DNA from: Caldicellulosiruptor diazotrophicus
GTDB lineage: Bacteria > Bacillota > Thermoanaerobacteria > Caldicellulosiruptorales > Caldicellulosiruptoraceae
Assembly: GCF_017347585.1 (NCBI RefSeq)
Contig: NZ_AP024480.1
Span: 2,006,001 to 2,070,000 of the forward strand
DNA length: 64,000 nt
Reading direction: 5' to 3'
The stretch's first letter is position 1. Each line of letters opens with the position of its first letter. The notes beneath the pieces are model-generated. The model did no database searches, had not been told where the DNA came from, and worked only from the letters and a program-made list of their open reading frames with translations. A program made the position numbers and the translations under genes. Below, one piece after another: positions 9,342 through 58,458 of this stretch.

Positions 9342-10166
<825 letters not shown>

Positions 10167-10262
10167 CTAATTGCCTCCTTTCAGCAAGATTAAAATTGTT
10201 GAATTATGTGTTTTGATATGGTAAACTTAAAAATGGGACAATAAATCAATTTTTTTGCGAGG

Positions 10263-10337
10263 CAGGGGGAGATAAGTTGTGCAAATCTACTAAGTAGCTT
10301 CAAGGTAGAGGAAGCACTTTTTATTCTTCTCCCCCTG
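10263..10337 (-). promoter_or_regulatory. Strong inverted repeat in the nifH leader
   Basis: A perfect 10-bp stem joins 10263-10272 (CAGGGGGAGA) to 10328-10337. The 55 bases between contain smaller pairings: GTGC 10279-10282 with 10314-10317, TCTAC 10286-10290 with 10305-10309, and as an alternative GCTTC 10297-10301 with GAAGC 10311-10315. It lies 100 to 175 bases upstream of nifH. No U run follows on either strand, so it is not a standard intrinsic terminator. A leader RNA element or a protein-binding dyad are both possible. Confidence 0.5.
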
Positions 10338-10373
10338 TATTTCCAACAAAAATGAGCTAAAATCTATGAAAAA

Positions 10374-10528
10374 TGGCAACAGCAGACATCAAAGCCTTGC
10401 TATGGCGAATAACACATGGCAATGGCAGGCACAAAACACGCTATTCACTTTTTTAAAAAGAGGGGCGCAAGAGGCAAGGCAGATTTATCTTCTCAATTTG
10501 GGGGTGTTTTGGATGCCTGCTGTTGCCA
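10374..10528 (-). ncRNA. Candidate structured RNA between glnB and nifH
   Basis: A 17-bp closing stem pairs 10374-10390 with 10512-10528; its only irregularity is U-G if read on the minus strand but A-C on the plus strand, so minus is favoured. Inside it, 10394-10400 pairs perfectly with 10474-10480 (7 bp) and 10407-10411 with 10442-10446 (5 bp). 10433-10439 can pair with 10504-10510 (7 bp) across the second helix, a possible pseudoknot. AUUUUU follows the 3' arm on the minus strand, and a TATAAT lies just before the 5' arm (10535-10530). No ORF is present. I know no family with this layout. It could be a nif leader or a small RNA; function is unknown. Confidence 0.45.
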
Positions 10529-10557
10529 AATTATAAACTCAAGGAATGAGGGAAGGT

Positions 10558-10902
<345 letters not shown>

Positions 10903-10940
10903 TCACCCTTTTCAAATAAAATTTATCTTAAAATCAAAAT

Positions 10941-12287
10941 TTACTTTACTGCCTGAGACTTCATTACAAAGTCACTATACGCTGTTGCGCCGTGTTCTGC
11001 AACGTCAAGACCTTCTATTTCTTCTTCTTCAGAAACTCTGAGCCCAACTGTTATTTTGATGATTGCAAAGAGTATAAATGCTGTCACAGTGGTCCATACA
11101 AATGTTGATGCAACACCAGCAAGCTGAACCAAAAACTGCTTTATTCCTCCACCATAGAAAAGTCCGCCATCTAGAGCAAAAAGTCCAACCATCAGTGTTC
11201 CAAAAGCTCCACATACGCCATGAACAGAAATTGCACCAACTGGATCGTCTATCTTGAGTTTCTTGTCTATAAACTCAACGGCCATTACAACCAGTATACC
11301 TGCAAGCCCACCTATTATTGCCGCACCCCATGGGTTGACAGATGCACAACCTGCTGTAATCGCAACAAGACCAGCCAAAGCACCGTTTAGTGTCATACTG
11401 ACGTCTGGTTTTTTATACTTTAGCCATGTGTATATCATTGCTAAGTTTGCACCCATCGCAGCTGCCAGGTTGGTGTTGACAGCAATATCACCAATCTTCT
11501 CATTCATACCAGATAAGGTTGAACCTGGGTTAAATCCAAACCAACCAAACCATAATATAAACGTTCCAAGTGCTGCTAAGGTTATACTATGACCAGGTAT
11601 AGCATTTACTTTACCATCTTTTGTGTATTTACCTATTCTTGGCCCAAGCAATGCTGCACCAATTAGAGCACACCAGCCACCAACAGAATGTACAACAGTT
11701 GAACCTGCAAAGTCGATAAATCCAAGTTTGCTCAGCCAACCGCCACCCCATGCCCAATGACCTACAACAGGATAAATGATAAACGAAATTACAGCACTGT
11801 AAATGCAATACGCAATAAACTTTGTTCTTTCAGCCATAGCACCTGAGACAATTGTTGCAGCTGTTGCAGCAAACACTGTTTGAAACATCAAAAATGATGT
11901 AAGCGGAATAGATAGGCCCAAGTGTTTAAATGAATCATTCAGGAAAAATCCAGACGTACCGATAAACCCACCTGTGTCTTTCCCAAACATAAATGCAAAT
12001 CCAAAGAGCCAGAATATTACAGAGCCTATCGCAAAGTCCATTAGGTTTTTCATAACAATATTGCTCGCATTTTTTGCTCTGGTAAAGCCTGCTTCGACCA
12101 TTGCAAATCCTGCTTGCATAAAGAACACCAAAAATGCTGTAACAAGAACCCAGACATTATCAACAGCAGTTGCCACTTTATCAGGTGTAACCTGGTCTGC
12201 TTTTGCTATTGATGTAAAAAGTAGCAAAGTTACAATTGTTCCTACCGGGATTAAAAAGGCCTTGTAGTTTTTAATGAGTCTATTCAT
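10941..12287 (-). CDS. amtB: Ammonium transporter AmtB
   Basis: 448-residue channel of the Amt/MEP/Rh family with a signal-like N-terminal segment (residues 10-30) and eleven further membrane helices. Diagnostic parts are FFMQAGFAMVEAGFTRAKN, DFAGSTVVHSVGGW with the first pore His and SVHGVCGAFGTLMVG with the second. The cytoplasmic tail (VSEEEEIEGLDVAEHGATAY) is the conserved GlnK-contact region. It conducts ammonium or ammonia into the cell when external levels are low. It is the first gene of the amtB-glnB unit and has TAAGGAGG ten bases before the ATG. Confidence 0.97.
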   Translation of the reverse strand: MNRLIKNYKAFLIPVGTIVTLLLFTSIAKADQVTPDKVATAVDNVWVLVTAFLVFFMQAGFAMVEAGFTRAKNASNIVMKNLMDFAIGSVIFWLFGFAFMFGKDTGGFIGTSGFFLNDSFKHLGLSIPLTSFLMFQTVFAATAATIVSGAMAERTKFIAYCIYSAVISFIIYPVVGHWAWGGGWLSKLGFIDFAGSTVVHSVGGWCALIGAALLGPRIGKYTKDGKVNAIPGHSITLAALGTFILWFGWFGFNPGSTLSGMNEKIGDIAVNTNLAAAMGANLAMIYTWLKYKKPDVSMTLNGALAGLVAITAGCASVNPWGAAIIGGLAGILVVMAVEFIDKKLKIDDPVGAISVHGVCGAFGTLMVGLFALDGGLFYGGGIKQFLVQLAGVASTFVWTTVTAFILFAIIKITVGLRVSEEEEIEGLDVAEHGATAYSDFVMKSQAVK

Positions 12288-12456
12288 CTTTAAAAACCCT
12301 CCTTAAACCTAACTTTTTACTGATACAACTTTGTTCACTTGCCCTGCGCCCCCTTTTCAAAGTAAAGATTCTCTGGTATAATGAAAAAGCACGCAATTTT
12401 TAAAAAGAGAAGATTGAAAAACCAAAGGCATGTGTGGAGACGGATAAAATTGGGTA

Positions 12457-12502
12457 ATTAAAAAAGGCAAAGGCAACCTTTTGAAAGGCGCCTTTGCCTT
12501 TC
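12457..12502 (-). terminator. Intrinsic terminator after the Re-citrate synthase-like gene
   Basis: AAAGGCAAAGGC pairs with GCCTTTGCCTTT around a short loop, and the minus strand continues into a U run. It ends the transcript of the gene at 14058-12661. The remaining non-coding DNA on either side (12288-12456 and 12503-12660) shows no ORF or clear motif; the amtB promoter must lie in 12288-12456, but I could not assign its hexamers. Its first 23 bases repeat those at 558-580. Confidence 0.8.
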
Positions 12503-12660
12503 TTTCTTTATTCTCTTTGTTTACTCTCATTATATTCTTCATTTTGCAATTTGTCAATACCAAAATTGCATTTTATTTTAGATAAAGTTTTTGGAATTTT
12601 AAATCCATGTTTTGTGAAAAATGAATATGCTTGCAGCAGCTTTTATTTAATTCTACCCTG

Positions 12661-14058
12661 TTATTTTACCCTGCTTTCATGCATCTTGAAAAGCTCTGGC
12701 ATGATTTCTCGAACAACCATTTCAAGCTCATCGTCGCCAATAACAGTTGTTCTTCCATTTTCGTACTCCTTGTCAACCCACTCTTTGATTTTAGCAACTC
12801 TTGGGTCGCGCTTGTCAATCTTCTTGTCACCTTCAAGCCTGAAATATGTGTTAATCCATGCAGCGATACCTGCAAGCCCAGAGTGTGCATCAACTGCAAT
12901 GACAATTGGCCTGTTTAAAATCTTCTTTGTATCAAAGATGTTGTAGATCTCCTCATCCTTTAAAATACCGTCAGCATGAATTCCTGCTCTTGTTGCATTA
13001 AATGCTCTGCCAACAAACGGCGTTCTTGGTGGAATCTCATAGTCAAGCTCTTTTTCAAAGTAATCTGCAATCTCAGTGATTACCTCAAGCCTCATATTCT
13101 TTGTTGTTCCACGAAGCTGGGCATATTCAATTACCATAGCCTCAAGCGGAGTATTACCAGTCCTCTCACCAATACCCAAGAGCGAACAGTTGACTGCAGA
13201 TGCACCGTAAAGCCATGCAGTACCAGAGTTAACAACAGCCTTGTAAAAATCGTTGTGACCGTGCCACTCAAGCCACTCAGACGGCACCTCTGCGTAATGC
13301 CTTAGCCCGTAAATTATTCCCTGGACACTTCTTGGCAGAGCAACTCCCGGGTAAGACACACCAAGCCCGAGGGTATCGCATGCTCTTATCTTGACCGGCA
13401 TATTTGCTTGGCGCGCAAGTTTCATAAGCTCATTTGCAAACGGAACAACAAAGCCGTAAAAGTCTGCTCTTGTGATGTCCTCAAAATGGCAGCGCGGAAT
13501 AATTCCATGTTCAAGAGCGGCTTCAACAATAGAAAGATACATTTCCATTGCCTGTTTTCTTGTCATGTTGAGCTTTTTGAATATATGATAGTCAGAGCAT
13601 GATACCAAAATTCCTGTCTCTTTGATGCCCATCTCTTTCACAAGTTGAAAATCCTCTTTTCTTGCTCTTATCCATGAGGTAACCTCTGGATACCTATAAC
13701 CTCTTTCCATGCATTTAATAACAGCTTCTCTATCTTTTTTTGAATATAGAAAAAACTCTGTCTGACGGATCACGCCAGAGTCGTTGTCAAGTTCGTGGAG
13801 ATAATCAAAAAGCCTTACAATCTGTTCAACTGTATAAGGAGACCTTGCTTGCTGACCATCTCTGAATGTTGTATCTGTTATCCATATCTCATCAGGCACA
13901 AACATAGGGACATGCCTGTGGTTGAAGGCTATCTTGGGTATCTCTGTGTACGGGAAAATCTCTCTATAGAGGTTCGGCTCTGGAACATCCTGGAGTGTAT
14001 ATTTATACGCTGCCTGCTCAATCAGATTTGTCTTGGGATTAAATTCTACTCTTGCCAC
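12661..14058 (-). CDS. Re-citrate synthase-like enzyme (isopropylmalate/homocitrate synthase superfamily)
   Basis: 465-residue HMGL-like acyltransferase with TDTTFRDGQQARSPYT near residue 57, HFEDITRADFYGFV, CDTLGLGVSYPGVALPRS and EWHGHNDFYKAVVNSG, then a C-terminal domain with GRAFNATRAGIHADG. It lacks the long LeuA regulatory domain. This is the clostridial type to which Re-stereospecific citrate synthase of Clostridium kluyveri belongs, condensing acetyl-CoA with oxaloacetate in anaerobes without a classical citrate synthase. Homocitrate synthesis is the alternative. The start is GTG at 14058 with GGAGGG eight bases upstream. A near-palindrome lies just upstream of the ribosome-binding site. 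It is monocistronic by its terminator. Confidence 0.8.
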   Translation of the reverse strand: MARVEFNPKTNLIEQAAYKYTLQDVPEPNLYREIFPYTEIPKIAFNHRHVPMFVPDEIWITDTTFRDGQQARSPYTVEQIVRLFDYLHELDNDSGVIRQTEFFLYSKKDREAVIKCMERGYRYPEVTSWIRARKEDFQLVKEMGIKETGILVSCSDYHIFKKLNMTRKQAMEMYLSIVEAALEHGIIPRCHFEDITRADFYGFVVPFANELMKLARQANMPVKIRACDTLGLGVSYPGVALPRSVQGIIYGLRHYAEVPSEWLEWHGHNDFYKAVVNSGTAWLYGASAVNCSLLGIGERTGNTPLEAMVIEYAQLRGTTKNMRLEVITEIADYFEKELDYEIPPRTPFVGRAFNATRAGIHADGILKDEEIYNIFDTKKILNRPIVIAVDAHSGLAGIAAWINTYFRLEGDKKIDKRDPRVAKIKEWVDKEYENGRTTVIGDDELEMVVREIMPELFKMHESRVK

Positions 14059-58091: not shown

Positions 58092-58458
58092 GGGGGCGTG
58101 TTTTGGAATTCGACGGGGGCAGTCGGATTCCAAATAGCGGGTAGTGGTTTTCTCGGAACCACTATAAAAAACCGAGAAGAAAAATAACTGCAGAAAAACC
58201 ACAACTCGCTTTAGCTGCGTAAATAAGCAGCTAACGTCCGCCGGAGGTGCCCACGGCCTCCGAGTCGGGCGCCAACCGTCGTGGGGCACCGAAAGTAAGG
58301 TCGCCTGAGCCTTACTTTTGGGACTAATCTCAGGCTGGGGAAGAAAAAGCCTGTCAGTGGGCGTTTTCTTCCCGAGAATTTAAGTACACTGACTGCACCC
58401 GGAGAAGTTTGGGGTTCGATGCCTTCGGACGGGGGTTCAAATCCCCCCGCCTCCACCA
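58092..58458 (+). ncRNA. ssrA: Transfer-messenger RNA (tmRNA)
   Basis: About 367 bases. The 5' end GGGGGCG pairs with CGCCUCC before the encoded 3' ACCA (one G-U pair). GGTTCAAATCC-type T-arm (GGGGGTTCAAATCCCCC) precedes the 3' end, and GGAATTCGACGGGG is the conserved 5' region. The tag ORF starts at GCA 58190 and ends at TAA 58222, coding AEKPQLALAA, a normal degradation tag. GC-rich helices 58230-58400 fit the pseudoknots. With SmpB it rescues stalled ribosomes and marks the nascent chains. Confidence 0.97.

Follow-up and report, generated by a model that had tools for sequence, protein, structure and literature searches.

The window analysed here, a 64,000-nucleotide stretch (G000:C1:2006001-2070000) of a Caldicellulosiruptor-like genome of ~2.6 Mb, carries a nitrogen-fixation locus whose genes on the minus strand follow one another as amt1, glnB1, a noncoding element, nifH, two further PII-like genes, and nifD-/nifK-like genes. 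The two PII-like genes 3' of nifH are presumably nifI, a name taken from their position. The Amt, PII, and NifH identities are backed by NCBIfam, in agreement with an earlier note on this DNA that had placed a structured RNA candidate in the gap between glnB and nifH, the flanking genes being a PII gene (glnB) and nifH. The features discussed below, in minus-strand order, are as follows.

12335..12358, minus strand: amt1 leader site UGAAAAGGGGGCGCAGGGCAAGUG, partner of the second antisense site by complementarity
10941..12287, minus strand: amt1, an ammonium transporter gene of the nif-linked operon (NCBIfam)
10558..10896, minus strand: glnB1 (PII; NCBIfam), with its stop codon ~28 nt 5' of the element
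10530..10535, minus strand: TATAAT, a -10-like box (TAYAAT in 9/9 relatives in the alignment)
10369..10530, minus strand: proposed small RNA from the closing stem to U5 (~155-162 nt; covariance model R1, alignment A1)
10509..10528, minus strand: arm C, the 5' arm of the closing stem (38/38 identical between clades through to CCCCCAAATTGAG)
10495..10515, minus strand: 21-nt antisense site CAUCCAAAACACCCCCAAAUU, a perfect complement of the amt2 Shine-Dalgarno sequence and AUG (G000:C1:593413-593433)
10455..10480, minus strand: C-rich second antisense site GCCUUGCCUCUUGCGCCCCUCUUUUU, complementary to the amt1 leader
10417..10441, minus strand: arm B', an internal partner of C in a fallback fold (GUGUUUUG with CAAAACAC, plus UGCCUGC and UUGCCA) that imitates the amt2 site
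10374..10393, minus strand: arm A', the 3' arm of the closing stem, pairing with arm C
10369..10373, minus strand: U5 tract, terminator-like, directly 3' of the closing stem (TTTTT in 9/9)
10263..10337, minus strand: separate hairpin in the nifH leader (CAGGGGGAGA...UCUCCCCCUG), whose inner stems show compensatory changes
9342..10163, minus strand: nifH (NCBIfam)

The element is very probably a conserved RNA read from the minus strand. This strand is favoured by a G-U pair in the closing stem that is conserved in 9/9 genomes, by the TAYAAT box before the element, and by the TTTTT tract after it; on the plus strand the G-U position becomes an A-C mismatch. Both motifs, which the earlier note had described as a TATAAT upstream and a U tract following, are present at 10535-10530 and 10373-10369 and kept in 9/9 genomes. 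Both strands fold better than chance, and energy alone does not choose the strand, since the z scores against shuffles are similar (-4.7 for minus and -5.2 for plus, with 0/200 shuffles as good on either strand). No -35 sequence is conserved at the TATAAT box among the nine aligned relatives, a promoter scan of 10150-12700 gave no match to a full sigma-70 promoter at the element, and a start site 6-7 nt past TATAAT would cut into the closing stem, a point against the small RNA reading. No Rfam family reached its gathering threshold for the element, and the short, weak matches obtained at a relaxed E of <=5 scored far under the gathering level and all lay outside it. The absence of any Rfam match of substance, the invariant arms, and the conserved stem G-U together support a conserved, structured minus-strand RNA of unassigned class. 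The window's only Rfam match at gathering threshold is a tmRNA at 58092-58458 on the plus strand. A conserved open reading frame within the element was rejected on either strand, as lengths and frames vary among genomes and the length differences of the element are not multiples of three. On the plus strand, 10500-10536 reads as an amt2-like ribosome site followed by a tiny frame, ATGCCTGCTGTTGCCAAATTATAA (MPAVAKL), which is probably a by-product of the antisense arm.

The predicted fold has the 17-bp closing stem with one G-U, recognised in the earlier note as specific to the minus strand, in which UGGCAACAGCAGGCAUC (10528-10512) pairs with GAUGUCUGCUGUUGCCA (10390-10374). Two further helices described there need correction. 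The pairing that it read as a possible 7-bp pseudoknot is present (8 bp, 10504-10511/10432-10439, invariant in 9/9), but it is an ordinary helix because it is nested inside the closing stem; the 7-bp helix at 10394-10400/10474-10480 (GCAAGGC) can be drawn in the window, but the second clade has not kept its 3' side. Overlooked at that time was the existence of two competing folds, in which arm C pairs either with A' or with a second internal copy, B'. With A' barred from pairing, the element of every genome adopts a structure of -35 to -42 kcal/mol; the C:B' helix is displayed for G000 and G003. Both B' and A' are similar to the amt2 site (GUGUUUUG). Covariation, which the earlier note had put forward as a check, proved uninformative in the alignment of relatives: 22/23 pairs are invariant, and invariant arms cannot test the helices in this way. 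As a terminator, the closing stem would enclose an unusually large interior of ~120 nt, and a terminator scan restricted to loops of 3-8 gave no flag at the closing stem and U5.

The distribution of the element coincides with that of nifH within the genus. Among 12 genus genomes, nifH occurs in nine, and the same nine carry both the element and amt1; covariance model R1 matches all nine with 187-215 bits, and the element, amt1, and nifH are all missing from the other 3/3. Outside the genus, no element was detected in 25 further genomes of the class (class set of 37 genomes in 8 genera), in ~40 nifH loci of other lineages, or in a plasmid collection. Between clades, identity is 38/38 from arm C through CCCCCAAATTGAG, 24/25 in the central C-rich stretch, and 19/20 in A' plus U5, compared with 31% over the 54 bases upstream, 42% in the stretch from B' to A', and 60-70% in the remaining nifH leader. 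An R1 match at 12460-12501 was rejected as a relative, being an ordinary terminator of the amt1 leader, and the second BLAST places in G004 and G007 (L020, L021) proved to be unrelated sequence. The hairpin of the nifH leader is likewise found only in the nine nif-bearing genomes, and three of its pairs change in a compensatory way from one clade to the other (GUGC/GCAC to GUAC/GUAC; CUAC/GUAG to UCAC/GUGA).

The genome contains a second ammonium transporter gene, amt2, followed by a second PII gene, glnB2, and its translation start is the likely target of the element RNA, as judged from sequence complementarity. A BLAST search of the element against its own genome returned a single strong non-self match (E 9e-4 genome-wide), located 1.4 Mb away at amt2-glnB2; the matched 21 nt, AATTTGGGGGTGTTTTGGATG, end in the ATG of amt2, so the element RNA runs antisense to the ribosome-binding site of amt2. 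The 16-mer core GGGGGTGTTTTGGATG occurs twice in the genome, at the element and at the amt2 site only. Across the nine RNA-bearing genomes the RNA arm is constant, and the match to amt2 is present in 9/9, being perfect over 20-21 nt in seven and carrying one internal mismatch each in G006 and G007. The predicted duplexes range from -30.1 to -36.9 kcal/mol. The G000 value of -36.9 kcal/mol compares with a best of -23.6 in 26,600 sampled windows and with a mean of -8.2 (sd 3.6, best -20.1) over 432 sampled gene starts, the background being a 400-kb genome sample plus the window. When both RNAs of G000 are folded, the complex is favoured by 13.6 kcal/mol at 37 C and by 8.8 kcal/mol at 75 C, in comparison with ~0.4 for shuffled targets. 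CCCCCAAA is mostly unpaired in the predicted fold, could initiate the pairing, and is nevertheless conserved 38/38 together with arm C. Two properties of a base-pairing trans-acting sRNA are seen here, namely complementarity to a translation start beyond chance (21 nt over the ribosome-binding site of amt2) and retention of site and target in relatives (9/9).

Several observations weigh on the other side. At 37 C, internal pairing takes up roughly half of the antisense site. The amt2 site is identical in all 12 genus genomes and hence equally conserved in the three that lack the RNA, which means that it is not kept for the sake of the RNA alone. No compensatory change between the RNA and its targets was seen in the nine genomes, because both partners are nearly invariant. 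As a separate observation, the amt2 leader (L144) is strongly conserved in 12/12 genomes and contains a GGGGGCAUACC/GGUAUGUCCCC hairpin together with a weak hairpin over the Shine-Dalgarno sequence.

The amt1 leader contains a conserved island whose complement is a second conserved and largely unpaired stretch of the element, CUUGCGCCCCUCUUUU. This match occurs in 9/9 genomes at -33.4 to -36.6 kcal/mol; bulges that break it in several genomes, and GC-rich coding windows that reach similar energies, count against it. The motif RGGGGCGCARG has 4 genomic copies (0 for the reversed control), situated in the element, the amt1 leader, the start of an amino-acid permease gene, and the region before a glycoside-phosphorylase-like gene, the last two names being readings of the translations. 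The permease start GGGGGCGCAAGATG (L190) is complementary to the second site of the element at -30.4 kcal/mol, and on this complementarity the permease is a possible third target. Matches of the amt1 and permease type are weaker than that to amt2 and may be due in part to ribosome sites being rich in G. The amt1 leader itself (12462-12557, minus strand) bears a perfect TTGACA-17-TATAAT promoter and, within ~70 nt, a near-invariant terminator hairpin; it contains AGGC-AAAGGC-GCCU, a hexaloop with A1 and G4 of the kind that ANTAR proteins like.

The position of the element resembles that of an operon 3' end. It starts 28 nt after the glnB stop codon, or ~42 nt after ureC in G008. Two relatives, G008 and G011, carry a urea-transporter and urease operon that separates glnB from the element; in G008 its genes were identified, and in G011 the evidence is a direct reading of the half copy and of a urtA-like start. 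In these two genomes glnB is followed by the 5' half of the element only, without the terminator arms, and the full element comes after the urease gene. Hence, whatever nitrogen operon lies ahead of nifH, a complete copy of the element closes it. Such placement fits a terminator with a 3'-UTR RNA and is supportive rather than proof, as a chance duplication of ~83 bp would look alike. For the inserted operon (L142 in G008, L143 in G011) urtA, urtB, and urtE were confirmed. The 5' half of the element flanks the insertion as direct copies of ~83 bp, and the two copies within each genome resemble each other; in G008 a truncated second urtA start has an IS1634 transposase gene beside it.

The reading preferred here, to which we assign a probability of about 0.6 on sequence grounds, is that a small RNA from the 3' end of the amt1-glnB operon represses amt2 translation and perhaps acts on amt1. 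It builds on where the element lies and how well it is conserved, on the strand-specific G-U and the predicted fold, on a complementarity that is rare in the genome, and on the joint occurrence with amt1 and nif. From these we infer transcription, processing, the direction of regulation, and a physiological role as a transporter switch under nitrogen fixation. A minus-strand RNA of ~160 nt would arise as a 3'-UTR RNA of the amt1-glnB1 operon, the -10 box being a possible second source, and would be terminated by the 17-bp closing stem together with U5. The largely unpaired CCCCCAAAUU would act as a toehold for the amt2 mRNA, and pairing would then open the C:B' helix within the RNA, along with C:A' at its inner end. 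Consequently, amt2 translation would be blocked whenever the nif-linked amt1-glnB1 operon is on, and the central C-rich stretch may pair with the amt1 leader, with possible feedback on the amt1-glnB1 operon. The presence of an Hfq gene in the genome counts in favour of an sRNA. A more elaborate and only tentative version holds that the RNA is self-locking and dual-targeted, with an amt2-antisense arm and two internal target mimics, and that it combines a conditional amt1-glnB/nif terminator with a trans-acting switch; if this were true, one ammonium transporter would be turned off while the RNA's own operon supplies the other.

The main rival is a cis-acting attenuator of the nif operon, in which transcription from amt1-glnB would read through when C pairs with B' and terminate when C pairs with A' ahead of U5, a nitrogen signal choosing between the two. 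It would account for the two mutually exclusive pairings (C:B' and C:A') of one invariant arm, for U5 directly after A' in 9/9, and for an element that lies directly before nifH in 9/9, between glnB and nifH wherever the urease insertion is absent. However, it offers no account of why the element matches the ribosome-binding site of amt2 exactly, or of the invariant unpaired stretches matching amt1; nifH is preceded by a long leader of its own, in which a separate conserved hairpin could be a 5' end; and in G008 and G011 the element stays with nifH despite a changed upstream operon. Attenuation appears rather unlikely. The same unpaired stretches, antisense to the amt2 ribosome-binding site and the amt1 leader, together with an element that follows the preceding operon like a 3' end, disfavour the riboswitch-like regulator of the nitrogenase operon suggested in the earlier note, whose view of a structured minus-strand RNA without a known class is supported.

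The remaining explanations have low probabilities. It is improbable that the element acts as DNA, with GGCAAYRGCAGRCA (two direct copies and one inverted) bound by a nitrogen regulator: all three exact copies lie inside the element, and its 5' half is carried in front of urtA in two relatives, but genome-wide no exact copy is found at any other gene, the spacer is conserved as well as the copies, a G-U is conserved where DNA would have a mismatch, and the amt2 match is not accounted for. A terminator or processing RNA of amt1-glnB without a trans target, for which the amt2 match would be coincidence or relic, suits the position directly 3' of glnB and the conservation of the amt2 ribosome-binding site where the RNA is absent; it must nonetheless accommodate a 21-nt match exactly on the functional site of a paralogous amt gene, whose unpaired part is invariant between clades, and is likewise improbable. 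Near-perfect inverted repeats of ~20 bp at the ends recall a mobile-element remnant or MITE, a possibility that is extremely slight and largely refuted by the single-copy orthologous position: the same site is occupied in nine genomes, with a nearly invariant interior and no clear target duplication. A multi-copy mobile element or insertion sequence was rejected, the element being single copy in the genome and dispersed copies absent.

If the trans-acting small RNA reading holds, the candidate would connect the amt1-glnB operon beside nif with the genome's other amt-glnB pair in a thermophile growing at <=78 C, and would be an sRNA with a predicted antisense site on the start codon of an ammonium transporter. 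Caldicellulosiruptor lacks nifA, and the ammonium response of its nitrogen fixation has been stated as open (PMC8209448). ANTAR-controlled leaders are known to precede ammonium-transporter, PII, and nitrogenase genes and require two small hairpins with A1/G4 hexaloops before the terminator (PMC3369931). One ANTAR protein of the genome scored over the cut-off, a response regulator at G000:C1:1951974; the leader layout itself is absent from the element, as its predicted folds contain no tandem short hairpins with A1/G4 hexaloops. Like the element, NfiS and NfiR of Pseudomonas stutzeri are noncoding RNAs, needed there for nitrogenase expression, but their targets are nifK and nifD mRNAs, with no antisense pairing at an amt start site described (PMC6606865, PMC9170634). 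sRNA154 of Methanosarcina mazei is similarly a small RNA tied to nitrogen fixation with nitrogen-assimilation mRNAs as targets; unlike the element, it is archaeal, its listed targets (nifH, nrpA, glnA1, and glnA2) include no ammonium transporters, and it stabilises nif mRNA (PMC9170634). Among the titles and abstracts listed in searches of openly accessible papers, none describes anti-Shine-Dalgarno pairing of an sRNA with an amt mRNA. GlnZ is the sRNA of the glnA 3'UTR in Enterobacteriaceae. Release of an sRNA from that 3'UTR is described (PMC9731577); the element differs in its bacterial hosts and target class and in its source, amt1-glnB beside nif, no sequence kinship being claimed; what the two would share is the 3'UTR of a nitrogen operon as the source of a trans-acting RNA.
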